Source of the DNA: Paenibacillus ottowii
GTDB taxonomy: Bacteria > Bacillota > Bacilli > Paenibacillales > Paenibacillaceae
Assembly (NCBI RefSeq): GCF_006874425.1
Contig: NZ_VIJZ01000001.1
Coordinates: 682,001 to 746,000 of the forward strand
Direction of reading: 5' to 3'
Length of the DNA: 64,000 bases
The notes beneath the pieces are model-generated. The model ran no database searches and had not been told where the DNA came from. It saw nothing but the letters and a program-made list of their open reading frames with translations. Below are positions 20,512-64,000 of this stretch, piece by piece. Both the position numbers and the translations under genes were made by a program. How positions within the stretch are numbered: position 1 is the stretch's first letter; every line of letters begins with the position of its first letter.

Positions 20512-21462
20512 TTGCAATCACATAAAAAAGGTAACGCGCGGGGAATCGACGTATCCCGATATCAAGGAAACATTGACTGGAAGGCGGTTAAGGCTGACGG
20601 TATTTCATTTGCCTTCATCAAGGCCAGCCAGGGGCAACGTTACGTTGATCCTACATTCACTACGAATGCTAAAGGAGCCAGAGCAGCCGGGGTATTGTTG
20701 GGGGCATACCACTTTGTAGACGCAACCAGCGTTGAGGCAGCCAAAGCGGAAGCCCGGCATTTTGCCGAGGTATTGGAACAGGTAGGTGGTGGGAAATCTC
20801 TGGACTTGCCGCCTGTAATGGATTATGAAAACAATCCCGGCAACCTGTCTAAAACGCTTATTAGTGCTGTAGCGTTGGCCTTTCTGCTGGAGTTGGAGCG
20901 ACTTACAGGACGCAAGCCCATTATTTATACAGGCAATGCATTCGCAGCCAATTTTAACGCCTCATTGAGCGGGTACCCATTATGGATAGCCCGATATAGT
21001 GAAACGCGCGTACCGAGCGATACAGTGACGTGGAAACGTTGGGATATTTGGCAATACAGCGACAGCGGCAAGGTAGCAGGAATAAAAGGGAACGTGGATA
21101 TGAATGAGTATGATGGTACGGCGGACGAGCTACGTGAACGTTTCACAAAGCGCCCTGAGCAGCCGGAGACAGTCACGTCCGGTACGTTCATCGTAAATGG
21201 CAAACAGGTAGGGAAGACGCTGCTCTTTAGTGGCAGGACGTATGTTCCGTTGCGTGTGCTTGCTACTGTGTTGGGTTTATCGTGTCATTGGGACACCAGT
21301 CTCAAGGTCGCTTATTTAAATGGAGCCAAGCTGCAATTTATCCAACTGGTCGAAGGAGTGGCATATGTGCAGCTAAGACCCGTTGCGGAGGCATACGGCG
21401 CTGTAGTGTCCTGGGATTCAAAAAATAAAATCGCATCGTTGAAAACGAAAGGGGATAAATAA
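20512..21462 (+). CDS. Endolysin: GH25 muramidase with copper-amine-oxidase-like domain
   Basis: A 316-aa lysin that cleaves the peptidoglycan glycan chain. The GH25 domain spans about residues 8-200: GIDVSRYQG (Asp13), AFIKASQG, GAYHF, MDYE (Asp104, Glu106) and WQYSDSG. Residues about 225-312 form a copper-amine-oxidase N-terminal-like domain (GRTYVPLRVLATVLG, LRPVAEAYGA) frequent in Paenibacillus surface proteins and probably cell-wall binding. TTG start after GGGGGAG. No signal peptide, so export depends on the holin. Confidence 0.93.
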   Translation: MQSHKKGNARGIDVSRYQGNIDWKAVKADGISFAFIKASQGQRYVDPTFTTNAKGARAAGVLLGAYHFVDATSVEAAKAEARHFAEVLEQVGGGKSLDLPPVMDYENNPGNLSKTLISAVALAFLLELERLTGRKPIIYTGNAFAANFNASLSGYPLWIARYSETRVPSDTVTWKRWDIWQYSDSGKVAGIKGNVDMNEYDGTADELRERFTKRPEQPETVTSGTFIVNGKQVGKTLLFSGRTYVPLRVLATVLGLSCHWDTSLKVAYLNGAKLQFIQLVEGVAYVQLRPVAEAYGAVVSWDSKNKIASLKTKGDK

Positions 21463-21464
21463 TC

Positions 21465-22046
21465 ATGCAAACAATTATCGAAACCGTACAACCATATGTA
21501 AGTACCGTCGCTACAGCTATTCTAGGAGTCCTGACAGCCATTGTTATAGCTGGACTGAACACGATTAAGGTGAAGGCTAATGAGTGGATAAACGCCCGTA
21601 CAACGGAGTCACAGCGCGTCCTGTTGCACAAATTGGCGGAAGAAGGATTCTCTCTCTCTAAGACAGTTTTCAAAGAGGCAGACGGTCCGAAAAAGCTACA
21701 ACAGGCTTTATCCTATGTAACCAGACAACTACAACAAAGAGGTATTTACCTTACTGACATAGAGATTCAGGGGGCCATCGAAAAGGCGTACCTAGACTAC
21801 AAAGCCAAGCAAAAACCCATTAGTACAGAGGAAACTGCTATAGCGGTTGCAGGAGACGATATTAGCACAGAAGAAGCTGCACGAGTAGCGGCGAAAGAGG
21901 CTATGGTTGGTTTGGCAGCTAAAGTAAATGAGCTATTAGCCCAAGCTACAGCAGAAGCTGTACCCGCTGCTCCTGCTCCTATTCAGCCTGAGTCTGAGTC
22001 TGTTCCTGCACCAACAACAGAACAAATGCCTGTAACTGCGGAGTAA
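21465..22046 (+). CDS. Second holin-like protein (LLH family)
   Basis: A 193-aa protein with one N-terminal membrane segment (about 13-33, VSTVATAILGVLTAIVIAGL), a charged helical middle (about 40-115, GFSLSKTVFKEADGPKKLQQAL) and an Ala/Pro/Glu-rich tail. This is the layout of LLH-type holins (holin_6). It may be an antiholin or co-holin for the first holin. ATG two bases after the endolysin stop, so they are co-transcribed. Confidence 0.75.
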   Translation: MQTIIETVQPYVSTVATAILGVLTAIVIAGLNTIKVKANEWINARTTESQRVLLHKLAEEGFSLSKTVFKEADGPKKLQQALSYVTRQLQQRGIYLTDIEIQGAIEKAYLDYKAKQKPISTEETAIAVAGDDISTEEAARVAAKEAMVGLAAKVNELLAQATAEAVPAAPAPIQPESESVPAPTTEQMPVTAE

Positions 22047-22074
22047 AGACTAATACACATTGAGCAAGTAAGAA

Positions 22075-22113
22075 AAAGCTCTGCTAACCTTAATTGGTCG
22101 GCAGAGCTTTTTT
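22075..22113. terminator. Bidirectional terminator between lysis operon and minus-strand operon
   Basis: Ten-base stem AAAGCTCTGC (22075-22084) / GCAGAGCTTT (22101-22110) flanked by A-run on one side and T-run on the other. It can end both the lysis operon and the converging minus-strand operon. Confidence 0.85.
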
Positions 22114-22114
22114 G

Positions 22115-22207
22115 TTATTTAAAGTAATTACGAATACTTAACAATAGAGCAACAATACTTATTGCCCATCCAGATATAGATATGGTCCATAAGATGGCAT
22201 CATACAT
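22115..22207 (-). CDS. 30-aa single-pass membrane peptide
   Basis: ATG at 22207 is preceded (minus strand) by AGGAGGT six bases away, an excellent site. The product begins MYDAILWTISISGW and ends LLLSIRNYFK: a hydrophobic helix of about 22 residues with a short basic end. Last gene of a minus-strand set behind the 104-aa protein. The function is unknown; it could be a small toxin, a membrane regulator or a holin-like peptide. Confidence 0.65.
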   Translation of the reverse strand: MYDAILWTISISGWAISIVALLLSIRNYFK

Positions 22208-22243
22208 AGACTTACCTCCTATAATGGAGCATGGAATCCCGCG

Positions 22244-22558
22244 TTATACCTCATCATACTCTTCATATTCAGCCTTACGTAACAATTCCCAAAACTTCTG
22301 TACGTCCCCGCCTGATTCGAGATAGGTGTCAATCATGTGTTTTGCCTCAACAACTGAACAGGCCCATGCGCCTCCAGGCATTGCAAGACAACCATTCTCC
22401 ATAACGATGTAGCCACGCCGTATATCATTCCCCTTTATCCGCCAAGGATTTCGCCCCATATCCAACTTGGGTTGGATTATGAATCCTTTGTACTCAATAC
22501 GAATATCTGGAACATGAATTAATCCATTGCTGCGGTATTCTGCTTTTTTCTTTTCCAT
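22244..22558 (-). CDS. Hypothetical 104-aa protein
   Basis: Unrecognised. Basic N-terminus, then RIEYKGFIIQPKLDMG, GYIVMENGCLAMPGGAWACSVVEAKHMID and a charged helical end (LLRKAEYEEYDEV). It is soluble by composition. ATG after AAGGAG (minus strand). It lies between two small membrane peptides on the same strand, suggesting one short operon expressed from the prophage. Confidence 0.75.
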   Translation of the reverse strand: MEKKKAEYRSNGLIHVPDIRIEYKGFIIQPKLDMGRNPWRIKGNDIRRGYIVMENGCLAMPGGAWACSVVEAKHMIDTYLESGGDVQKFWELLRKAEYEEYDEV

Positions 22559-22660
22559 TTCACGTCTCCTTGCGTAAGGCCGCCGCCAATTGTATATATC
22601 AAACTGTTATGTTAAGATTGGGTGGAGATGGCGCTATACTAGCCGCCACCTCTGGTACTT

Positions 22661-22798
22661 TTAACGTTTACGCTGCCCGCGTCGTTTAGGTACCTTTTTC
22701 TTTTTCTTGCTCTCTTTAAACACTTTGACCAAACCGATAATTGCAGTTATCAGGTTTGTGAGTGCGGTGGAGAGCAAGACCCAATCTATTGCTCTCAA
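22661..22798 (-). CDS. 45-aa membrane peptide with basic tail
   Basis: TTG at 22798 with AAAGGGGTG eight bases upstream. The product has a hydrophobic helix (VLLSTALTNLITAIIGLVKVF) followed by a strongly basic Lys/Arg tail of about 18 residues. It is the first gene behind a minus-strand promoter at 22845-22874 whose operators are shared with the HTH gene at 22946. The layout resembles small phage toxins or holin-like peptides; function unproven. Confidence 0.6.
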   Translation of the reverse strand: MRAIDWVLLSTALTNLITAIIGLVKVFKESKKKKKVPKRRGQRKR

Positions 22799-22833
22799 AT
22801 TTCTTTCACCCCTTTCGGAAGCTTGTGTTTCAC

Positions 22834-22933
22834 TTCCTGTAAATAATATATCACATCCTGTAGTTTTTGGTCAAGCAAAAATGTTTGATTTTCTGTAATT
22901 AAAATATTATAATGCGTATATAAATTACAGGAA
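22834..22933. promoter_or_regulatory. Divergent promoter region with CCTGTA-type operators
   Basis: Four copies of a related site: TTCCTGTAAAT (22834-22844), ATCCTGTAGTT (22855-22865), TTCTGTAATT (22891-22900) and inverted AATTACAGGAA (22923-22933). Plus promoter: TTGATT (22885-22890), 17 bp, TATAAT (22908-22913), with one site inside the spacer. Minus promoter: TTGACC, 18 bp, TATATT (22874 down to 22845), also overlapped. The HTH protein encoded at 22946 is the obvious binder, repressing both directions. Confidence 0.7.
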
Positions 22934-22945
22934 AGGGGTCTTTCG

Positions 22946-23158
22946 ATGGCTATAACGTATAAGCCCTTGTTGAAATTGTTGGTTGAACGAGGAATGAAAA
23001 AAATGGATTTGCGTACAGAATTGAGTTTGGGACCGTCTACTATCGCAAAATTCGATAAAGGTGAGTACGTATCTTTGGAGGTCGTTGAAAAGCTGTGTGC
23101 ATATTTCGATGTGCAGCCCAACGATATTATTGAGTATGTAAAAGAGCAGGAGGGGTAA
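22946..23158 (+). CDS. Small XRE/HTH regulator
   Basis: A 70-aa protein that is essentially one helix-turn-helix domain: KMDLRTELSLGPSTIAKFDKGEYVSLEVVEKLCAYFDVQPNDII is the usual short XRE (HTH_26-like) layout, similar to YozG-type proteins. ATG after GGAAAGGGG. The gene has its own promoter with operator sites in and after it, so it probably represses itself and the divergent small-peptide operon. Confidence 0.85.
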   Translation: MAITYKPLLKLLVERGMKKMDLRTELSLGPSTIAKFDKGEYVSLEVVEKLCAYFDVQPNDIIEYVKEQEG

Positions 23159-23179
23159 AACCTCGCTGCTCTTTTTTTA
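23141..23179 (+). terminator. Terminator overlapping the HTH gene end
   Basis: Stem AAGAGCAG-GAGG / CCTC-G-CTGCTCTT followed by seven T. The left arm lies inside the last codons of the HTH gene. Confidence 0.8.
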
Positions 23180-23217
23180 TTGAACAAAATAAAAAGCCCT
23201 CAACATGAGGACTTGTG

Positions 23218-23226
23218 TGGTATAAT
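23218..23226 (+). promoter_or_regulatory. Extended -10 promoter of the 42-aa peptide
   Basis: TGG-TATAAT at 23218-23226, an extended -10 with no clear -35. Transcription would begin near 23233 and give a short leader of about 50 bases before the peptide gene. Confidence 0.55.
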
Positions 23227-23286
23227 CTGGATTGGACAACGGGTGGGGTCACGGCGCAGCCTTCTGTAAAGGAGGTGATTGACGCC

Positions 23287-23415
23287 ATGACTGCACTTGG
23301 TGCGTTTTACATGATCCTGAAAGTAATTTCAACGATTCTAAGCCTATGGTTTAGTTCACGGAAAGTTTACCGATGGATACGTAAAAGACGTAACAAGCGC
23401 AAAACCCACCGCTAA
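23287..23415 (+). CDS. 42-aa membrane peptide, candidate type I toxin
   Basis: ATG 23287 follows AAAGGAGGTGA (23268-23278), a near-perfect ribosome site. The product has a hydrophobic helix (LGAFYMILKVISTILSLWF) and a very basic C-terminus (WIRKRRNKRKTHR). A frame extends upstream to 23215 but lacks a ribosome site. The last codons form the left arm of a strong terminator. A possible convergent RNA starts from 23528-23551 on the other strand. This is the architecture of prophage type I toxins such as TxpA or BsrG; toxicity is inference. Confidence 0.6.
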   Translation: MTALGAFYMILKVISTILSLWFSSRKVYRWIRKRRNKRKTHR

Positions 23416-23439
23416 GGTTGACCGCCTACGGTGGGTTTT
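23401..23439. terminator. Shared bidirectional terminator
   Basis: Perfect 11-bp stem AAAACCCACCG (23401-23411) / CGGTGGGTTTT (23429-23439). A-run and T-run on both sides allow use from either strand. Confidence 0.85.
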
Positions 23440-23487
23440 GCTGTCTTAACAGTAATATAATGCGCGCCGTGAGGCACATCGTTGTTC

Positions 23488-23520
23488 AGGGGGAGCTAGC
23501 GACTCCCCTTATTTATATTA
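23488..23520. terminator. GC-rich hairpin with following T/A tract
   Basis: Stem AGGGGGAG (23488-23495) / CTCCCCTT (23503-23510), loop CTAGCGA, then ATTTATATTA. It could be a weak terminator or part of the candidate antisense RNA. Confidence 0.5.
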
Positions 23521-23565
23521 TTATGTTACCACACTGAAACTATACAGGCAATGGGATTGCCTTTG

Positions 23566-23579
23566 TTGACTATAGTCAA
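23566..23579. promoter_or_regulatory. 14-bp perfect palindrome, possible operator
   Basis: TTGACTATAGTCAA, a perfect dyad next to another short inverted repeat (GGCAAT-GGG-ATTGCC, 23547-23561). Lies between the candidate antisense promoter and the lipoprotein terminator. Confidence 0.4.
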
Positions 23580-23584
23580 ATATT

Positions 23585-23612
23585 AAAACCCCGGATTGCT
23601 CCGGGGCTTTAT
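23585..23612. terminator. Terminator of the lipoprotein gene
   Basis: Stem CCCCGGA (23589-23595) / TCCGGGG (23600-23606) flanked by AAAA and CTTTATTT. On the minus strand it follows the lipoprotein stop directly. Confidence 0.8.
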
Positions 23613-24248
23613 TTATTTAAGCTCAAGTTTAACTGAGTATTCTTTTTTATCTTGAGTAGGTTCCATACCGTTACCCTCAATGACATACCATTTCATTTTA
23701 ATCCATTTGATATCAGCAGCATGACCGCGTTTCAGGAACCAAATTATATTCCCATCTTTAATAACGCCTTCTTCAATTTCTCCGCCGATGTGATCAGAGG
23801 TCACCATGTCTGCTTGAACCTGTTCACCAGTAGAGGTAATCAATTCCGCTTGGTCAGGGTATGTAGTGAAAAGTTTTTTAGTGGTGTTTTCAACTTTGAA
23901 TTTCACTCCAACAGCAGAAGCTGTAAGATCATTTGTATTTCCATCTTTAGGAGCGCGGTCAGTAACAACTACTTTTTCAATAGTAGAAGTAACACCATTC
24001 CATGTATCTGTCCATTTTGCATCGTTATAGTAGGTCCAAATGTCGTCGGGCTTTTTCTCTGCTTCAACCGGCGCAGCCCCTTCTTTAGTAGTCGCTGGTT
24101 CAGCAGCCTTAGTTTCTTTAGCTGGTTGGCTTTCTACTTTTGCCTGCGTAGGTGTTTCGTCCTTAATAGCGGTCTTGTCAGCTCCACACCCAGCAAGCAG
24201 GCTAATCGCCGCGATAGCTGCAACCGTGAGACTTAAAGTTTTCTTCAA
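23613..24248 (-). CDS. Prophage-encoded surface lipoprotein
   Basis: A 211-aa lipoprotein: signal peptide MKKTLSLTVAAIAAISLLAG with the lipobox LAGC (Cys21), a Lys/Glu/Pro/Ala linker (about 25-68), then a beta-sandwich-like domain (about 75-211) with VGVKFKVENTTKK typical of DUF4352-like exported proteins. TTG start after AGGAGG seven bases away. It is transcribed away from the agr-like cassette and shares its intergenic region. Likely roles are lysogenic conversion or superinfection exclusion. Confidence 0.85.
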   Translation of the reverse strand: MKKTLSLTVAAIAAISLLAGCGADKTAIKDETPTQAKVESQPAKETKAAEPATTKEGAAPVEAEKKPDDIWTYYNDAKWTDTWNGVTSTIEKVVVTDRAPKDGNTNDLTASAVGVKFKVENTTKKLFTTYPDQAELITSTGEQVQADMVTSDHIGGEIEEGVIKDGNIIWFLKRGHAADIKWIKMKWYVIEGNGMEPTQDKKEYSVKLELK

Positions 24249-24260
24249 CTTACTTCCTCC

Positions 24261-24272
24261 TATTGATCAATA
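24261..24272. repeat. Palindrome in the lipoprotein 5' region
   Basis: TATTGATCAATA, a perfect 12-bp dyad just upstream of the lipoprotein ribosome site. It may be an operator. Confidence 0.35.
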
Positions 24273-24302
24273 ATATATGGATATAGTCTATCAGACCTAG
24301 GA

Positions 24303-24371
24303 AAATATTTCTACAAAAACATGAAATACTTCCCAATTTGGCTTGAGCAAAACCGCCGAAAATCGTATATT
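24303..24371 (+). promoter_or_regulatory. Promoter of the agr-like operon with LytTR-type direct repeat
   Basis: Promoter TTGAGC (24343-24348), 17-bp spacer, TATATT (24366-24371). Upstream are AAATATTTC (24303-24311) and AAATACTTC (24324-24332), eight of nine bases alike, period 21 bp with a 12-bp spacer, ending ten bases before the -35. LytTR proteins such as AgrA bind 9-bp direct repeats with this spacing next to weak -35 elements, so the stand-alone LytTR protein at 25714 may act here. Confidence 0.55.
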
Positions 24372-24411
24372 TACAGGGGAAGAAAGAAAAAATGCAGAGG
24401 ATGAGTAGTAG

Positions 24412-25041
24412 ATGTGGGATACGTCTATGTTTATAACTTTTTCAGTGGTTGAGAGTTTTGCGGCTTTTGTATTGACGTTGACTATTTTTAGGTTAAAAGC
24501 TTTGGACTTCCAATGGCAGGCCTTAGTAGTGACTCTACTAATGTCGTGCCAAAGTTTCGTTCTGCGGGAAGAATTACAATTGGCTTTTCTGGCTCCAGTA
24601 ATAAACATACTGTTAATGGTGCTACTAATAACAACGATAGTTAAAGTACCGCTGATATGGTCTTGTATACTGTCGGTGACTGGTTTTTTTGTCTATACAC
24701 TGTTCCAAACAATACTCTTATTGCTTATGTACTCTGATGTACCTATGAGCGAATTACAAGGGGGATCGGCAAAGGGGTCTTTGTTACAAGCCGTGACCAG
24801 TGCAGTCGTGTTGATCGTATCAGGACTGCTTTATAAATTCGGAATAGGTTTTATAGCCCCGTTTGACAAACTACGAATTAAATGGGAACAGAACATTGTC
24901 ATTATCGTAATCATAGGAGCGCTGGCAACCCTGACAGTAATAGCGTATGTAAACGATGTATGGCTTAATATAGCCTATTTTGCACTGGCAGCGGGGATGT
25001 TTCTATATTACGCGCTGCGGAAGGAGAGAGAATATGATTGA
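24412..25041 (+). CDS. AgrC-sensor-like membrane protein lacking a kinase domain
   Basis: A 209-aa polytopic protein with six or seven membrane segments (about 5-26, 34-50, 56-77, 82-107, 123-146, 161-180, 184-201). This is the size and pattern of the N-terminal sensor half of AgrC-type histidine kinases. The chain ends at LRKEREYD with no H-box or ATPase domain, and the next gene starts before its stop, so it is not a simple truncation with a lost remainder. It probably binds the peptide signal and controls the LytTR protein directly, as in HdrM/BrsM-type systems. First gene of the operon. Confidence 0.65.
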   Translation: MWDTSMFITFSVVESFAAFVLTLTIFRLKALDFQWQALVVTLLMSCQSFVLREELQLAFLAPVINILLMVLLITTIVKVPLIWSCILSVTGFFVYTLFQTILLLLMYSDVPMSELQGGSAKGSLLQAVTSAVVLIVSGLLYKFGIGFIAPFDKLRIKWEQNIVIIVIIGALATLTVIAYVNDVWLNIAYFALAAGMFLYYALRKEREYD

Positions 25042-25576
25042 GCCATTATCCTTACGAATGGCGCAACATATCAAAAGTGTTGTACCAGACCATCCGGCCT
25101 CAGTGCCAGTATTACAGCATGCATTGGCTGTCTTATTGAATATGGTGTTTATTACGGGCTTGACCCTCGTTATATCGGTTTTTACAGGCCGCACGAGGGA
25201 AGTGGTGACGATTATGGCGGCATTCGCCTTTCTCCGTCAAATGACTGGAGGTATACACCTTAAAAGTGGCATGGGCTGTGTAGCTGTTTCCACACTGTTG
25301 TTTACTGGCTTATCGTTCATCAGCTTGGATCACAACTGGACGATAGGTGCAACATTGGTCAGTATGCTTTTAATTCTAGCTTTTGCACCAGCGGGAATCG
25401 AAAACCAAACACGTATACCACCAAAATACTTTCCGTTGCTTAAAGTGCTGGCCTTGTGTGTGGTTGGGCTCAATTTTTACTTTGCTGATCCAATTACGGC
25501 AGTGAGCTTTTTGTCACAAACCATACTGTTAATTAACTTTAGGATAGGAGGTGAAACAACACATGAAGAAGCTTAA
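25034..25576 (+). CDS. agrB: AgrB-like cysteine peptidase
   Basis: A 180-aa membrane endopeptidase that cuts and cyclises the AgrD-like peptide. The key motif RQMTGGIHLKSGMGC holds the catalytic His75 and Cys82, and several membrane helices surround it (about 28-50, 58-70, 84-95, 105-120, 137-155, 158-170). ATG 25034 follows AAGGAGAGAG and overlaps the upstream stop by eight bases. A longer frame from 24980 is the out-of-frame end of the previous gene. Its stop overlaps the AgrD-like gene. Confidence 0.92.
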   Translation: MIEPLSLRMAQHIKSVVPDHPASVPVLQHALAVLLNMVFITGLTLVISVFTGRTREVVTIMAAFAFLRQMTGGIHLKSGMGCVAVSTLLFTGLSFISLDHNWTIGATLVSMLLILAFAPAGIENQTRIPPKYFPLLKVLALCVVGLNFYFADPITAVSFLSQTILLINFRIGGETTHEEA

Positions 25577-25700
25577 CATTAAAAGAAGCACCTACTACGC
25601 CCTGGCTACTTGCTTATCATCGTTTGCTGTAATGACTGTTGTGGTGGCTAGTTTATTTTACGTATACAATCCAAAGCCGCCAAAGGAACTAATGAAATAA
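25563..25700 (+). CDS. agrD: AgrD-like signal propeptide with Ser in the ring position
   Basis: A 45-aa peptide, ATG 25563 ten bases after AGGAGGTG (25545-25552), overlapping the agrB end by 14 bases. It has a basic N-terminal leader (KKLNIKRS), a hydrophobic segment (about 11-34) and the hallmark tail YNPKPPKELMK. Aligning PKEL with PKEL of Staphylococcus aureus AgrD places Ser30 where the thiolactone Cys lies, giving the ring Ser-Leu-Phe-Tyr-Val (30-34). Ser at this place is known from the S. intermedius group and yields a lactone. Cys17 is too far upstream. Confidence 0.85.
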   Translation: MKKLNIKRSTYYALATCLSSFAVMTVVVASLFYVYNPKPPKELMK

Positions 25701-25713
25701 GCTTGGAGGACAC

Positions 25714-26088
25714 ATGATAATTTCAGTCACCGTGGAGCACGACAGGGGCCCAAAACTACTGGATGTGGGTACGATCCTCTTTATTGAGAGCCAGAGCAGC
25801 ATCCAACGTATCGCAATGCATACGTTTGACGGCGTTTTTTACACAGTTGGACCATTGGGATATTGGGAAATGCTATTTAATAGCGAAGGGTACAGATTTT
25901 ACAATGTTGATCGTTCCTACACTATAAATGTAGATGAACTGACGGGGATAAACGAAAACTTGAAACTTGCTGAATTTCAAAGTAGCCAGAGCTACAAAAA
26001 AATGACCTGCACAATGGCAGGTCTGAGATATAAAAAAATAGCTGCAGCTTTGGCGAGATTAAAGCCAGATATTATATTTTATAATTAG
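25714..26088 (+). CDS. Stand-alone LytTR-type DNA-binding regulator
   Basis: A 124-aa protein that is one LytTR domain: DVGTILFIESQSSIQRIAMHTFDG, then GYRFYNVDRSYTINVDELTGI (about 58-80), matching the conserved 'F..v.RSy.VN...I' core of AgrA/LytR DNA-binding domains. No receiver domain precedes it. ATG after GGAGG, 13 bases from the agrD stop. Last gene of the operon. It probably binds the direct repeat at 24303-24332, and its activity would be set by the membrane protein. Confidence 0.8.
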   Translation: MIISVTVEHDRGPKLLDVGTILFIESQSSIQRIAMHTFDGVFYTVGPLGYWEMLFNSEGYRFYNVDRSYTINVDELTGINENLKLAEFQSSQSYKKMTCTMAGLRYKKIAAALARLKPDIIFYN

Positions 26089-26091
26089 TAG

Positions 26092-26123
26092 AGAGCCGCT
26101 AGGTTAACAGCGGCTCTTTTTTT
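26092..26123 (+). terminator. Terminator of the agr-like operon
   Basis: Nine-base stem AGAGCCGCT (26092-26100) / AGCGGCTCT (26109-26117) then a T-run to 26123. Confidence 0.9.
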
Positions 26124-26163
26124 ATGGAACATGTAACTATAACATATGTCTTAAGTAGGATGC

Positions 26164-26283
26164 TGTCGAAACTTGTTGTCGAAACTGTAAAATTCATATA
26201 TGAATTTGCTTTTACAAATGAGAGTATTTGGGATTTAATAAAAACATAAACCAGTCATTTGTTTGTTACCCATATGGGTGACA
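26164..26283. promoter_or_regulatory. Repeat cluster between agr-like operon and HTH gene
   Basis: About 185 bases without a convincing gene (26124-26308) that hold direct repeat TGTCGAAACT (26164-26173, 26177-26186), perfect palindrome AAATTCATATATGAATTT (26190-26207) and near-perfect palindrome TGTTACCCATATGGGTGACA (26264-26283). The density of dyads suggests regulator-binding sites, but there is no clear promoter. Confidence 0.4.
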
Positions 26284-26308
26284 ATAAGGCTGTGGGGGAG
26301 CAGAAAAA

Positions 26309-26536
26309 CTACTCCACCTGCTTGCGGACGACTTCAAGTACATATAGGTCGGTGATTCTGCAGTTAAGTCGATAAGCTGCATTAAAGGCGAATTCAAGGG
26401 ACATTTTACGTTCTCCAGTTATTAGCTTATTGACGAATTGCCTTGAAACCCCCATTACTCTAGCAAAATCAGCCTGATTCATTTTGTTCTCTTCAAGTCG
26501 CTCCAGCAAGAGGCAAGCCCCAAGCCGGTAATCCAT
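26309..26536 (-). CDS. XRE-family HTH regulator
   Basis: A 75-aa protein with an HTH_3 domain: ENKMNQADFARVMGVSRQFVNKLITGERKMSLEFAFNAAYRLN (about 15-58). ATG at 26536 after AGGAGA. Single gene on the minus strand next to the agr-like operon. The HigA/antitoxin-like layout (MNQADFARVMGVSRQFVNKLITGERK) is notable, but no toxin partner is next to it. It may be a second repressor. Confidence 0.85.
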   Translation of the reverse strand: MDYRLGACLLLERLEENKMNQADFARVMGVSRQFVNKLITGERKMSLEFAFNAAYRLNCRITDLYVLEVVRKQVE

Positions 26537-26572
26537 ACGGGTCTCCTCTCTATGTATTCCATTTTAATCAAG

Positions 26573-26607
26573 TGTTCGTATTTTTGTTCGTATTTTTGTG
26601 GTATACT
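26573..26607 (+). promoter_or_regulatory. Promoter with tandem 12-bp repeats upstream of 46-aa gene
   Basis: TGTTCGTATTTT twice head-to-tail (26573-26584, 26585-26596), then extended -10 TGG-TATACT (26599-26607). No standard -35 at 17 bp, since the repeats occupy that place. It lies between divergent genes (HTH at 26536 and the 46-aa gene), so the HTH protein may bind the repeats. Confidence 0.5.
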
Positions 26608-26656
26608 GATTCCAACCTCTCAAAAACGGACGTCATTTAATTTAGGAGTGTTGTTT

Positions 26657-26797
26657 ATGGATTCAAAAATTGATTTGAAATGTTACTTAGAAATGTTACA
26701 TAACCAATATCAAGGGATTGACACAACGGAAGTTGAACAGCGTTTAGAAGAGATCATTTCTTCCAACGTTTTAGAGCTGCCTCCAGAAGTTCGATAA
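26657..26797 (+). CDS. 46-aa protein convergent with the repressor gene
   Basis: ATG 26657 follows TTAGGAGTG at good spacing. The product is soluble and helical (MDSKIDLKCYLEML... VEQRLEEIISSNVLELPPEVR). Its 3' 44 bases overlap, tail to tail, the end of the repressor gene on the other strand. Unknown function. The arrangement suggests transcription interference with the repressor or a small partner protein. Confidence 0.55.
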   Translation: MDSKIDLKCYLEMLHNQYQGIDTTEVEQRLEEIISSNVLELPPEVR

Positions 26798-27143
26798 TAT
26801 CGTCAGCTTCTTCTTTACTCAGGTCATGACCTTTATAGCTCAATTTGTACTGGTTTAGTCTCTCTATAGGTATTTCAGCCAACTCCGATTCTTCGTGACT
26901 ATCGGGGTTGTTTGCATTTTTACCAATTTCAAATTGATTAACATCTGTTACTCCAATTAGATAATCAACAGTGGTTTGATATAAATTAGCCAATTTCCCG
27001 GCTATTTCGGTTGTTAATCGTCGTTCCCCTTTTTCAATATCGTAATAGTATTGAGGCGTAATCCCTAAAGCCTTCGCAACTGCTATACCGCTCATTTTCT
27101 TCTCTTTTCTTATTCTTTTTAATCTACTATCCGCACCAGACAT
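26754..27143 (-). CDS. CI-like lysogeny repressor
   Basis: A 129-aa protein: N-terminal HTH_3 (RLKRIRKEKKMSGIAVAKALGITPQYYYDIEKGERRLTTEIAGKLANLYQTT, about 6-57), acidic linker and C-terminal helical part (LSKEEADDIIELLEAALKRW). No S24 peptidase domain, so it is unlikely to self-cleave; release may come through the antirepressor. ATG 27143 has AAGGAGC upstream; a frame extending to 27239 crosses operator DNA and is rejected. Faces the Cro-like gene across five operators. Confidence 0.88.
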   Translation of the reverse strand: MSGADSRLKRIRKEKKMSGIAVAKALGITPQYYYDIEKGERRLTTEIAGKLANLYQTTVDYLIGVTDVNQFEIGKNANNPDSHEESELAEIPIERLNQYKLSYKGHDLSKEEADDIIELLEAALKRWKK

Positions 27144-27165
27144 TAGTTTACCGCTCCTTCTATTT

Positions 27166-27331
27166 AAGCATTTTGCTGTAATGATAATAACATTCCCCAT
27201 GTTTTTAAACAATAAGCAAAATGCTGAAAAAATGAGCAATTTGAAGCATAATGCTGATAATATCAGAGAAATGCTCCATATTTAAGCATAATGCTTAAAT
27301 TTGCTCATTTACATATGTAAGCATAATGCTT
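27166..27331. promoter_or_regulatory. Lysogeny operator array (five AAGCATAATGCTT sites)
   Basis: Sites at 27166-27178, 27214-27226, 27244-27256, 27284-27296 and 27319-27331, consensus palindrome AAGCA-n3-TGCTT. Two perfect copies lie nearest the Cro-like gene and weaker ones (ending TGCTG) nearer the repressor gene. Half-sites occur near 27233 and 27270. This grading suggests ordered occupancy as in lambda-type switches. Confidence 0.85.
27184..27212 (-). promoter_or_regulatory. Repressor maintenance promoter
   Basis: Minus-strand TTGTTT (27212-27207), 17-bp spacer, TATTAT (27189-27184). One operator lies at the start point (27166-27178), one just upstream of the -35 (27214-27226), consistent with self-regulation. 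Confidence 0.7.
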
Positions 27332-27336
27332 ATTAT
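27308..27336 (+). promoter_or_regulatory. Early lytic promoter
   Basis: TTTACA (27308-27313), 17-bp spacer, TATTAT (27331-27336), with a perfect operator (27319-27331) filling the spacer. Repressor binding would block it. Confidence 0.7.
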
Positions 27337-27358
27337 TTAGTCATGGAGGTGAACAACA

Positions 27359-27553
27359 ATGAATTTCACAGAAGCTGTTGAGGCTGCTATGGAAGCAAAG
27401 GGAATGAGTAAAGCTGACTTAGCCCGGGCCACACACCGAAGTTACCAGTACATTAGTGATTTATTAAAAGGTGAGCGGAGGTGGCATGAAGGCATTATCA
27501 ACGAGGTCTGCGCTGCTCTCGGTATTCAAATTGAGTTCAATCATCAGCCTTAA
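27359..27553 (+). CDS. Cro-like HTH protein
   Basis: A 64-aa HTH domain protein: EAKGMSKADLARATHRSYQYISDLLKGERRWHEGIINEVCAALGI. ATG after GGAGGTG (27345-27351). It lies opposite the repressor across the operators and is the first gene of the early lytic direction, as Cro is. Confidence 0.82.
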   Translation: MNFTEAVEAAMEAKGMSKADLARATHRSYQYISDLLKGERRWHEGIINEVCAALGIQIEFNHQP

Positions 27554-27588
27554 CTATCAGTGACCAAATTATACAAGGGAGCCACAAT

Positions 27589-27636
27589 ATGAACATAATT
27601 AGCTTTGTATTCAGTAGGGAGGGAAGGCATGGATAA
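27589..27636 (+). CDS. 15-codon leader ORF before the antirepressor
   Basis: ATG 27589 with AAGGGAG at 27576-27582, encoding a 15-residue peptide (MNIISFVFSREGRHG) whose end overlaps the antirepressor start by eight bases. It could couple or pace translation of the antirepressor. It may be chance. Confidence 0.3.
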   Translation: MNIISFVFSREGRHG

Positions 27637-28399
27637 CATTCAACCAATTGAACAAAAAATGGTTCCTTTCAATGGAACTGAATTGCTTGGAGTCAAAGCG
27701 AATGATGGGAAGGTTTATATCGGAGTCTCATATGTTTGTAATGGAATTGGTCTAAGTGAAAAACAAAAGGATCGGCAAGTAAGCAATATTCAGGAAGATG
27801 CCACTCTAAAACAGGGGGCAAAAAAACTACCCCTCAAATTTGGGGGGCAGCAAAGAGAGGTGCTAGGGATTGAGCTTGACTATCTACCGCTCTGGCTTGC
27901 GAAAATCTCTATCACACCCAATATGCAAGTAAACCAACCGGAAGTTGCGGATAAGTTGGTTCAATACCAATTGAAAGCCAAAGATATTTTGGCAGAGGCA
28001 TTTATTCCAAAGGGGTTTGACTTTGATAGCCTTAGTCCTGAACTTAAAGCCATTTTTATAACAGATGCCAAGGTTCAACAGCTTGATTCTCGCGTGGAAC
28101 ATCTGGAAAATCACACCACTATTGACTATGGTCAACAACGCGAATTAAGGAAAGCAGGCAATGCCAGAATCGTCGGACTGCTTGGCGGAAAGAAATCGGC
28201 CGCCTACAAGAATAGTAGCCTACGCAATAAAGCTTATCAGGCTATGTGGAATGACTATCAAGACTTTTTTGGGATCAACTCTTACAGCAATACTTTCACG
28301 AAGGATTTTGACCGTGGATTGCAATATGTCCCACATTGGACTCCACCTAATAACCTTATGAGGGAGATTGAAGAAGCTAATGGACAAACATTGTTCTGA
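27629..28399 (+). CDS. Phage antirepressor (P22_AR_N + ORF6C)
   Basis: A 256-aa protein expected to bind and inactivate the lysogeny repressor, helping induction. Residues about 8-115 (VPFNGTELLGVKANDGKVYIGVSYVCNGIGLSEKQKDRQVSNI, then LDYLPLWLAKI) are the P22_AR_N-type domain. Residues about 140-250 (LDSRVEHLENHTTIDYGQQRELRKAGNARI) form the ORF6C domain. ATG 27629 after GGGAGGGAAGG. Because the repressor has no cleavable domain, this gene is probably central to switching. Confidence 0.9.
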   Translation: MDNIQPIEQKMVPFNGTELLGVKANDGKVYIGVSYVCNGIGLSEKQKDRQVSNIQEDATLKQGAKKLPLKFGGQQREVLGIELDYLPLWLAKISITPNMQVNQPEVADKLVQYQLKAKDILAEAFIPKGFDFDSLSPELKAIFITDAKVQQLDSRVEHLENHTTIDYGQQRELRKAGNARIVGLLGGKKSAAYKNSSLRNKAYQAMWNDYQDFFGINSYSNTFTKDFDRGLQYVPHWTPPNNLMREIEEANGQTLF

Positions 28400-28496
28400 T
28401 TTATCATTACCAGAACTGGCCCGTATGTGGTTTGGTAATCCGTTACAACATGCCGTACTTGTCAAAAACCTAATCAGAAAGGAACGAAACAAATGA
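28380..28496 (+). CDS. 38-aa coupled small protein
   Basis: ATG 28380 starts inside the antirepressor 3' end and the TGA overlaps the ATG of the next gene (ATGA). Product MDKHCSDLSLPELARMW... ends in a basic helix (LVKNLIRKERNK). The ribosome site is weak. The two-sided overlap suggests translational coupling. Confidence 0.45.
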   Translation: MDKHCSDLSLPELARMWFGNPLQHAVLVKNLIRKERNK

Positions 28497-29104
28497 ATAA
28501 AAATTATGAGAATATGGGGAAAAAGTACGACAAATTACAATCAGCTAGCCATGGGATCTTAGAACGTTTTATCGAAGCTGGTACAGAAGGTGATTTTAAA
28601 ACTCGTGAACGAAAGGCATGGACCCAAAATATTATTATTTCTAAAATGAAAGCCCGGATTTTGGATGATATGATTTCCAAAGCCAAAAAAATCATAAAAA
28701 CAATTGATGAAATTAGAGTCATGCGGAATGATCCTTACTATGAACAGGATGATTACATTTTCATGCAATCTTGCTTAATGGAATGTGAAGATCACGCTCG
28801 CCATAATGCCAAATACGTTCTTGAATATGCTATGTACGTAGATGAGACAAGTGGTTATTACAGTGAAGCGGAAATTCGCAGTATGTTATCAATCGGTTAT
28901 GAGGATTGGAAACGCTGGGTAGATCGAAATAAACCGTTAATGTCGATGTTGGTCACGAAGGTAGGAAATGAACCTTTAACCCATCATTGTATGGATTATA
29001 TGATGGATGAATTAACGAAAAATCCCCAAACTCGGGAAATGATGCGGAGAAAGACAGAAGAGTTATTTGGCCCGTTTATGGATTTTGAAGGTGGCGACCT
29101 ATGA
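28493..29104 (+). CDS. Hypothetical early protein (203 aa)
   Basis: Unrecognised helical, charged protein (ARILDDMISKAKKIIKTIDEIRVMRNDPYYEQDDYIFMQ; C-terminal MMRRKTEELFGPFMDF). ATG after AAAGGAACG. The stop overlaps the following ATG by four bases. Early operon position suggests host takeover or regulation, but nothing in the sequence proves it. Confidence 0.8.
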   Translation: MNKNYENMGKKYDKLQSASHGILERFIEAGTEGDFKTRERKAWTQNIIISKMKARILDDMISKAKKIIKTIDEIRVMRNDPYYEQDDYIFMQSCLMECEDHARHNAKYVLEYAMYVDETSGYYSEAEIRSMLSIGYEDWKRWVDRNKPLMSMLVTKVGNEPLTHHCMDYMMDELTKNPQTREMMRRKTEELFGPFMDFEGGDL

Positions 29105-62278: not shown

Positions 62279-62347
62279 AAATATTTCTACAAAAACATGA
62301 AATACTTCCCAATTTGGCTTGAGCAAAACCGCCGAAAATCGTATATT
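62279..62347 (+). promoter_or_regulatory. agr-like operon promoter with LytTR-type repeat (second copy)
   Basis: Same AAATATTTC/AAATACTTC repeats and TTGAGC-17-TATATT. Confidence 0.55.
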
Positions 62348-62387
62348 TACAGGGGAAGAAAGAAAAAATGCAGAGGATGAGTAGTAG

Positions 62388-63017
62388 ATGTGGGATACGT
62401 CTATGTTTATAACTTTTTCAGTGGTTGAGAGTTTTGCGGCTTTTGTATTGACGTTGACTATTTTTAGGTTAAAAGCTTTGGACTTCCAATGGCAGGCCTT
62501 AGTAGTGACTCTACTAATGTCGTGCCAAAGTTTCGTTCTGCGGGAAGAATTACAATTGGCTTTTCTGGCTCCAGTAATAAACATACTGTTAATGGTGCTA
62601 CTAATAACAACGATAGTTAAAGTACCGCTGATATGGTCTTGTATACTGTCGGTGACTGGTTTTTTTGTCTATACACTGTTCCAAACAATACTCTTATTGC
62701 TTATGTACTCTGATGTACCTATGAGCGAATTACAAGGGGGATCGGCAAAGGGGTCTTTGTTACAAGCCGTGACCAGTGCAGTCGTGTTGATCGTATCAGG
62801 ACTGCTTTATAAATTCGGAATAGGTTTTATAGCCCCGTTTGACAAACTACGAATTAAATGGGAACAGAACATTGTCATTATCGTAATCATAGGAGCGCTG
62901 GCAACCCTGACAGTAATAGCGTATGTAAACGATGTATGGCTTAATATAGCCTATTTTGCACTGGCAGCGGGGATGTTTCTATATTACGCGCTGCGGAAGG
63001 AGAGAGAATATGATTGA
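62388..63017 (+). CDS. AgrC-sensor-like membrane protein (second copy)
   Basis: Identical 209-aa kinase-less polytopic protein. Confidence 0.65.
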   Translation: MWDTSMFITFSVVESFAAFVLTLTIFRLKALDFQWQALVVTLLMSCQSFVLREELQLAFLAPVINILLMVLLITTIVKVPLIWSCILSVTGFFVYTLFQTILLLLMYSDVPMSELQGGSAKGSLLQAVTSAVVLIVSGLLYKFGIGFIAPFDKLRIKWEQNIVIIVIIGALATLTVIAYVNDVWLNIAYFALAAGMFLYYALRKEREYD

Positions 63018-63552
63018 GCCATTATCCTTACGAATGGCGCAACATATCAAAAGTGTTGTACCAGACCATCCGGCCTCAGTGCCAGTATTACAGCATGCAT
63101 TGGCTGTCTTATTGAATATGGTGTTTATTACGGGCTTGACCCTCGTTATATCGGTTTTTACAGGCCGCACGAGGGAAGTGGTGACGATTATGGCGGCATT
63201 CGCCTTTCTCCGTCAAATGACTGGAGGTATACACCTTAAAAGTGGCATGGGCTGTGTAGCTGTTTCCACACTGTTGTTTACTGGCTTATCGTTCATCAGC
63301 TTGGATCACAACTGGACGATAGGTGCAACATTGGTCAGTATGCTTTTAATTCTAGCTTTTGCACCAGCGGGAATCGAAAACCAAACACGTATACCACCAA
63401 AATACTTTCCGTTGCTTAAAGTGCTGGCCTTGTGTGTGGTTGGGCTCAATTTTTACTTTGCTGATCCAATTACGGCAGTGAGCTTTTTGTCACAAACCAT
63501 ACTGTTAATTAACTTTAGGATAGGAGGTGAAACAACACATGAAGAAGCTTAA
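63010..63552 (+). CDS. agrB: AgrB-like peptidase (second copy)
   Basis: Identical 180-aa protein with GGIH...C motif. Confidence 0.92.
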   Translation: MIEPLSLRMAQHIKSVVPDHPASVPVLQHALAVLLNMVFITGLTLVISVFTGRTREVVTIMAAFAFLRQMTGGIHLKSGMGCVAVSTLLFTGLSFISLDHNWTIGATLVSMLLILAFAPAGIENQTRIPPKYFPLLKVLALCVVGLNFYFADPITAVSFLSQTILLINFRIGGETTHEEA

Positions 63553-63676
63553 CATTAAAAGAAGCACCTACTACGCCCTGGCTACTTGCTTATCATCGTT
63601 TGCTGTAATGACTGTTGTGGTGGCTAGTTTATTTTACGTATACAATCCAAAGCCGCCAAAGGAACTAATGAAATAA
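63539..63676 (+). CDS. agrD: AgrD-like propeptide (second copy)
   Basis: Identical 45-aa peptide with Ser30 and PKEL tail. Confidence 0.85.
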   Translation: MKKLNIKRSTYYALATCLSSFAVMTVVVASLFYVYNPKPPKELMK

Positions 63677-63689
63677 GCTTGGAGGACAC

Positions 63690-64000
63690 ATGATAATTTC
63701 AGTCACCGTGGAGCACGACAGGGGCCCAAAACTACTGGATGTGGGTACGATCCTCTTTATTGAGAGCCAGAGCAGCATCCAACGTATCGCAATGCATACG
63801 TTTGACGGCGTTTTTTACACAGTTGGACCATTGGGATATTGGGAAATGCTATTTAATAGCGAAGGGTACAGATTTTACAATGTTGATCGTTCCTACACTA
63901 TAAATGTAGATGAACTGACGGGGATAAACGAAAACTTGAAACTTGCTGAATTTCAAAGTAGCCAGAGCTACAAAAAAATGACCTGCACAATGGCAGGTCT
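63690..64000 (+). CDS. LytTR regulator, cut by window end (second copy)
   Basis: First 103 codons of the 124-aa LytTR protein; the rest is seen in the copy at 25714-26088. Confidence 0.8.
   Translation, partial: MIISVTVEHDRGPKLLDVGTILFIESQSSIQRIAMHTFDGVFYTVGPLGYWEMLFNSEGYRFYNVDRSYTINVDELTGINENLKLAEFQSSQSYKKMTCTMAG

Follow-up and report, generated by a model that had tools for sequence, protein, structure and literature searches.

An AgrB peptidase and an AgrD propeptide carried by a prophage raise the question of how their peptide signal could be read when no histidine kinase stands beside them. We examined this question in a four-gene operon of Paenibacillus ottowii, within a window of 64,000 nucleotides (G000:C11:682001-746000) of the 5.5-Mb genome; positions are those of the window unless a contig or locus is named. 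The initial annotation had called the operon a phage-borne quorum-sensing system. The results showed that the region is indeed a prophage, 37,976 bp long, with PHROGs matches to terminase, integrase and endolysin. The assembly holds two tandem copies of it with one mismatch between them, which are either a real tandem lysogen or an assembly artefact. Because the prophage is tandemly duplicated, a second operon copy starts at 62388. We found that the cassette is real, complete and conserved, and that it should work like quorum sensing. Our favoured and, in our judgement, probable reading is a self-contained, kinase-free peptide quorum-sensing cassette, in which an agr front end is joined to a LytTR regulatory system.

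All four genes lie on the + strand, with neighbours overlapping or 13 bp apart, and their annotated order was confirmed, together with the promoter-like and terminator-like elements (Table 1). Terminator-like sites were well in excess of chance (22 observed against 5.0), while promoter-like sites were barely above it (22 against 16.3). A direct repeat has its first arm at the annotated start of the region, 24303. The proposed position between lysis and immunity modules also held, with the endolysin gene on one side and HTH regulator genes (26309-27553) on the other. The first gene had been described as encoding a polytopic sensor-like protein; seven long helices were predicted in it, but Pfam found no kinase domain.

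Table 1. Positions of the prophage, its cassette and related features.
Feature	Position	Strand	Evidence or remark
Prophage pair	G000:C11:678048-754006		7-bp core GATGAAT at either end and at the junction, window 34023/34024
Endolysin	20512-21462		PHROGs match
Proposed LytTR site, 9-bp direct repeat	24303..24332	+	Arms 8/9 alike, 12 bp apart
Promoter-like TTGAGC-17-TATATT	24343..24371	+	10 bp past the repeat
Membrane protein, 209 aa, proposed peptide receptor	24412-25041	+	AlphaFold, phrog_15604, kinase-fused homologue, co-variation
AgrB peptidase, 180 aa, H75 and C82	25034-25576	+	PF04647
AgrD propeptide, 45 aa	25563-25700	+	TIGR04223
Predicted signal core SLFYV, Ser at -5	25650..25664	+	Register from P-x-E-L motif
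Single-domain LytTR protein, 124 aa, without receiver	25714-26088	+	LytTR profile, AlphaFold/PDB
Terminator-like hairpin with T run	26090-26119	+	
Two perfect Spo0A boxes TGTCGAA, 13 bp apart	26164..26183	+	Sequence match
Small XRE-type HTH protein	26309..26536	-	HTH_3 E 2.5e-8; convergent with cassette
Second copy, repeat and operon	62279..64000	+	Exact repeat at +37,976; window end cuts LytTR gene
C21 prophage	G000:C21:81325-200872 (L016-L021, L272, L273)		Cassette at prophage edge
Lys-type AgrD examples	L022:18455-18583; L007-L010		Lys at -4

The peptidase matched Pfam PF04647 above the cut-off (E 2e-17), and its His75 and Cys82 were invariant among the first 8 AgrBs aligned, in agreement with the annotation. 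The closest named relatives in the genome scan were AgrBs of Paenibacillus terrae, farraposensis and brasilensis. The annotated AgrD-like propeptide scored 28.3 bits against NCBIfam TIGR04223 (cut-off 19) and has the two features of an agr propeptide, a Ser in the core and a C-terminal P-x-E-L. With both proteins above curated cut-offs, signal production by AgrB and AgrD appears well supported at the level of sequence, and the predicted signal is SLFYV, with the ring closed by Ser.

In the fetched loci we read 153 distinct membrane gene/AgrB pairs. An HMM detected AgrD in 140 of them (125 distinct sequences), and some of the 13 remaining cassettes show a Lys-type AgrD by eye. With the register set by a motif score blind to the tested columns, 72 distinct AgrDs had Ser or Cys at -5 without Lys at -4, and 53 had Lys at -4 without Ser or Cys at -5; not one of the 125 had both closing residues, and not one had neither. 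A single Ser-type entry (L086) is a frameshifted gene with a false register, and its removal left 71 and 53, so that Ser/Cys was absent and an invariant Lys present in 53 of 124 AgrDs, nearly half. Many of these AgrDs are closely related to one another; once redundancy is removed, 29 (Ser-type) and 23 (Lys-type) different cores remain. Gly directly follows the cut in 52 of the 53 Lys-type sequences. Candidates picked by eye from other families of the order agreed with the two types in 9/9 cases (4 Ser/Cys, 5 Lys), one of the nine repeating the sequence of phage Harrison and 11 of the 20 loci there yielding no candidate. The NCBIfam AgrD model passed 2/2 further Ser-type and 0/4 Lys-type AgrDs.

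By paper count, a five-residue ring closed by Ser/Cys and a four-residue ring closed by Lys both contain 16 atoms, and one AgrB-type enzyme could therefore serve both. The invariant Lys could thus close a ring of the same size as Ser/Cys does. The plainer reading is that Lys and Gly merely guide AgrB and that the product is linear. A literature search aimed at the Lys-type ring chemistry met none in the texts accessible to it.

The annotated LytTR protein scored 20.6 bits in Pfam, under the cut-off of 22.6, and a PF04397 search of its own genome, which returned 5 places, missed it for this reason. A LytTR match at E up to 0.1 was obtained for 20/20 aligned homologues, the window protein included (best E 8.8e-12). 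Its AlphaFold model (pLDDT 95.1) shows a LytTR fold: the first PDB match was 4g4k, the AgrA LytTR domain (E 7.4e-6), and all 13 matches at E <= 0.001 were LytTR domains of AgrA, ComE or a Bacillus cereus protein. Neither Pfam nor the PDB matches of the model revealed a receiver domain in the window regulator, and none was found in the aligned homologues. The regulator was about 120 aa long in 60 of 84 Ser-type cassettes and was not found in 24; of the 56 Lys-type cassettes, 24 have a regulator of about 120 aa and 21 one of about 240 aa, and in 11 none was found. The cassettes without an adjacent LytTR gene indicate that the pair is not obligate or that the gene was missed. In two of the long regulators the LytTR match fell at different places (residues 45-107 in one and 142-237 in the other), which suggests that these proteins have two domains.

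The direct repeat upstream of the operon has the layout AAATATTTC-12-AAATACTTC and ends 10 bp before the predicted -35 element. This layout outscored all 40 shuffles of its own upstream sequence. Within the prophage, the repeat occurred without mismatch only at the operon promoter and its second copy, and one further match, with 3 mismatches, was located at 28300. The host genome gave 9 matches at <= 2 mismatches against 5 for the reversed control, 4 of the 9 coming from the two operon copies, each read in both orientations; no exact copy was present elsewhere in the host, and the 5 two-mismatch matches outside the operon equalled the 5 of the control. Further targets of the repeat were thus not evident in the phage, or in the host at <= 2 mismatches. 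As a family-wide feature the direct repeat was rejected, with a weak excess of 12/112 non-redundant upstreams at p <= 0.05 where about 5.6 were expected. An operator shared by the operon promoter and the 3' gap was likewise discarded, since promoter and gap of the same cassette resembled each other no more than pairs from different cassettes did (z -0.4 and -1.1 for 42 Ser-type, 1.2 and 1.3 for 32 Lys-type cassettes).

We compared the cassette with the two known systems that it resembles. With agrBDCA of Staphylococcus aureus, which is also found in the genus, it shares AgrB, AgrD and the LytTR DNA-binding domain; it differs in having neither the kinase (AgrC) nor the receiver (of AgrA) and in placing the membrane gene first. 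With no kinase and no receiver, it is therefore not agrBDCA, and the label "agr-type", used for it at first, had to be given up in the strict sense; hhalign also detected no resemblance between the membrane protein and AgrC from the same genus (probability 0.2). True agr loci, with a GHKL kinase and a receiver-LytTR regulator, co-occur in the genus, indicating that the kinase-free form is a separate kind. With the LytTR regulatory systems HdrRM and BrsRM of Streptococcus mutans, the cassette shares a receiver-less LytTR protein, a membrane protein in the operon and 12-bp-spaced repeats 10 bp before -35, a layout that rests on a predicted promoter in the window and is not general among its relatives. 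Unlike these systems, it adds AgrB and AgrD and has no DUF3021 or DUF2154 match, and its gene order is reversed, as the regulator gene precedes the membrane gene in the S. mutans type. The cassette thus falls outside both the textbook LytTR regulatory systems and strict agr. According to the accessible part of one report, LytTR regulatory system-like operons with the membrane gene first also exist, and LytTR regulatory systems have the same repeat layout and activate themselves through the repeats once the membrane inhibitor is lost (PMC6193735).

This layout and self-activation led us to a mechanism in which the peptide would free the LytTR protein from the membrane protein. We infer that AgrB would cut AgrD and close the five-residue Ser lactone SLFYV, which would then exit the cell. 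The membrane protein would bind the peptide and control the lone LytTR protein through direct protein contact, without phosphorylation; in the simplest form, it would keep the LytTR protein inactive until the peptide is bound. The freed LytTR protein would bind the direct repeats and activate the operon, giving positive feedback. In a prophage, such a circuit could allow a lysogen to sense cells carrying the same allele.

A tblastn search with AgrB returned nine phage records. One is a contig, and the others belong to five named phages, three of which appear twice; the five are Brevibacillus phages Abouo, Davies and Emery and Paenibacillus phages Harrison and Paisley. The gene order was read in Abouo, Davies, Emery and Harrison. 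The order in each was that of the window: membrane protein, AgrB, an AgrD-size ORF and a LytTR-size ORF. Davies and Emery each carry a second membrane protein of the family. The phage cassettes read have a Lys-type signal, unlike the Ser-type signal of the window, and their membrane protein and regulator are only 15-21% identical to those of the window. The phage relatives were found through AgrB; tblastn at 0.01 with the membrane protein or with the LytTR protein returned none from phages, and at the DNA level there were none for the operon (distant search) or for window positions 1-25000 (near search). As the same gene order occurs in four phages and in many other loci, the arrangement exceeds chance. 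Loss of AgrB and AgrD among related phages had been named in the initial annotation as a point of refutation; both are retained in other phages, and this objection therefore falls away. Arbitrium is another form of peptide signalling by temperate phages. The operon differs from it in encoding no AimR-type receptor and in relying on AgrB for processing; AimR matches stayed under the cut-off of 70 bits, at 10.2 bits for AgrB and 21.8 bits for the HTH portion of the neighbouring XRE protein.

The use of such cassettes by phages has been known in part since 2014, when those of Davies, Emery and Abouo were noted, without mention of a LytTR gene in the accessible text (PMC3901668). The phage phiCDHM1 of Clostridioides difficile, to which the operon had been compared, carries AgrB and AgrD (agr3) as the window does, but the same text describes a histidine kinase and no regulator in it (PMC3901668), and Davies, Emery and Abouo are the closer relatives. 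In its available part, a 2025 review describes phage agr genes without a response regulator, which may use that of the host (PMC11945551); unlike in that picture, the phages here carry their own regulator and would have no need of a phosphorelay. For P. polymyxa ATCC 842, an agr-like cassette is mentioned without detail in the portion available to us (PMC7425212). In the literature searched, as far as its texts were accessible and with subscription papers outside the search, we found no description of a kinase-free circuit with its own LytTR protein, of the two signal types or of the Spo0A link.

Beyond the named phages, IMG/VR yielded 31 loci (19, 2 and 10), GTDB contigs 25 loci (one weak), and five plasmid records carried an AgrB relative. 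The membrane-protein HMM matched 40/75 genomes of the genus, at least 251/394 of the family and at least 180/296 drawn from the order; these counts refer to the membrane gene alone, the last two being lower bounds, with some candidates per genome scored, and the whole cassette was read in the 153 pairs of the fetched loci. At one locus (L283, G396:C1), a run of several membrane-protein family genes surrounds a single AgrB and a single LytTR gene, and the searches counted 10 matches in that genome.

In two prophages (L212 and L214) and one genome locus (L138), window-like DNA runs up to 24313 and is followed by Lys-type cassettes; the flank of L212 is about 91% alike over 1.7 kb. A Ser-type locus, L169, has just 42 bp in common at that flank. 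An extra gene of about 110 aa, which we take to be YolD-like, lies between the common flank and the cassette in L212, L214 and L169. Related prophages thus differ in signal type at a single site, which is what a specificity locus would be expected to show. The same observation of varying alleles in one slot among related prophages would also suit a passenger or lysogenic-conversion set that serves the host and has no part in phage decisions, as would the abundance of membrane-protein relatives in bacterial genomes and the lack of a second close repeat copy in the prophage. We regard this as somewhat unlikely, given that in the distant phages opened the cassette again has integrase or HTH regulator genes close by; it concerns the benefit of the cassette and not its mechanism.

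The host genome contains four distinct cassettes, in this prophage, in the C21 prophage (period 59,740 bp, likewise twice in tandem in the assembly) and on the chromosome at C2 and C38. Their predicted cores are SLFYV, SLSWI, KTIF and SYVYV, and the other three all differ from the SLFYV of the window prophage. The C2 cassette has a Lys-type signal, predicted core KTIF and a 244-aa regulator. The C38 cassette (L024, L025; G000:C38:318650-319918) has the membrane protein, AgrB and AgrD; a LytTR gene was looked for 3' of it and none was found. Chromosomal cassettes of the C38 kind, with no LytTR gene found, were also seen at L095, L099, L100 and L117, and in this type a 216-217-aa ORF stands about 300 bp further on. 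Cross-inhibiting signals often differ in the core. The phage cassette could accordingly act mainly by meddling with the host's own, its peptide either activating or jamming the systems on the chromosome or in the co-resident prophage, or its LytTR protein serving a host membrane sensor that has none. The three other host cassettes, the differing cores and the composition of C38 point in this direction. The phage cassette is, however, complete by itself, and the repeat has no exact copy elsewhere in the host and no excess of two-mismatch matches over the reversed control; we consider meddling as its main role unlikely.

The favoured reading of a self-contained cassette makes the membrane protein the receptor. 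Its AlphaFold model (pLDDT 87) has seven helices of >= 18 residues, and it matched the phrog_15604 entry "membrane protein" (E 1.1e-10). It had no Pfam match, DUF3021 and DUF2154 included, and a kinase domain was found in 0/28 aligned homologues at E up to 1. Foldseek gave no match at E <= 0.001, and the best VIA-align match reached Z 7.0 with an rmsd of 6.8 over 117 residues, which is described as common for VIA-align. Neither sequence nor fold comparison linked the protein to AgrC. If the membrane protein binds the peptide, the core and the membrane protein are expected to change together. We performed partial Mantel tests on non-redundant sets (45 Ser-type, 38 Lys-type; permutation floor 0.0005). 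The core was correlated with the membrane protein given AgrB in both types (r 0.33 for Ser-type and 0.42 for Lys-type, both p 0.0005). The values for the core and AgrB given the membrane protein were 0.10 (p 0.013) and -0.16, and those for the core and the regulator given the membrane protein were 0.04 and 0.11 (p 0.17 and 0.015). These p-values ignore ancestry, which inflates them, and the contrast between proteins weighs more.

In one distant homologue (G415, L282:1266-4219), the membrane module makes up the front part of a protein of 458 aa that also contains HATPase_c (E 2.4e-21); genes for AgrB, a Lys-type AgrD and a receiver protein (E 2.4e-11) lie beside it. Together with the co-variation of the core, this single fusion favours the membrane protein as the putative receptor. 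It could also mean that the membrane protein of the window lost its own kinase and recruits a histidine kinase of the host, so that signalling would still proceed by phosphate; this is very improbable, as the cassette regulator has no receiver to accept the phosphate. Least credible of all is a cyclic antimicrobial peptide matured by AgrB with the membrane protein as its immunity protein: the latter adjoins a peptide maturation pair and has no solved relative, but the fusion of the same module to a histidine kinase in one case, the LytTR partner and the short, AgrD-type cores argue against it.

We also examined the gap 3' of the cassette. A perfect Spo0A box (consensus TGTCGAA, from the accessible part of PMC3485338) occurred within 160 bp after the LytTR gene in 50/80 non-redundant gaps, compared with 141/6074 (2.3%) GC-matched stretches of the same loci, and it was the commonest heptamer of the 3' gaps. 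In Ser-type cassettes the box pointed along the cassette in 22/43 and in the opposite direction alone in 5, and in Lys-type cassettes it was opposite to the cassette in 20/30. A promoter-like pair 34-53 bp past the box, in the same direction, was present in 13 of the 50 gaps listed; the window gap had no such pair after its boxes. No conserved small ORF was evident by eye in the 3' gaps of the loci listed, and Rfam gave no match at gathering score in 21000-29000. A small convergent XRE gene lay within 1.5 kb in 52/153 distinct cassettes. The wider proposal that follows is tentative, and we rate it as possible: a kinase-free class would extend across the Paenibacillus order and its phages, with signals closed either by Ser/Cys at -5 (lactone or thiolactone) or by Lys at -4 (isopeptide lactam), both of 16 atoms; either kind would occupy the same prophage locus, and the Spo0A box would tie the cassette to sporulation.

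If the proposed mechanism is true, the four genes would be a very small complete cyclic-peptide quorum-sensing circuit, ready for use as a genetic part, and a direct test case for membrane receptor signalling without a kinase. The Lys-type signals, if cyclic, would represent a ring chemistry that the literature accessible to our search did not contain. The Spo0A boxes, if confirmed, would link density sensing by prophage and host with sporulation. Other phages and many related bacteria have similar kits, which may represent a widespread, barely studied form of communication.
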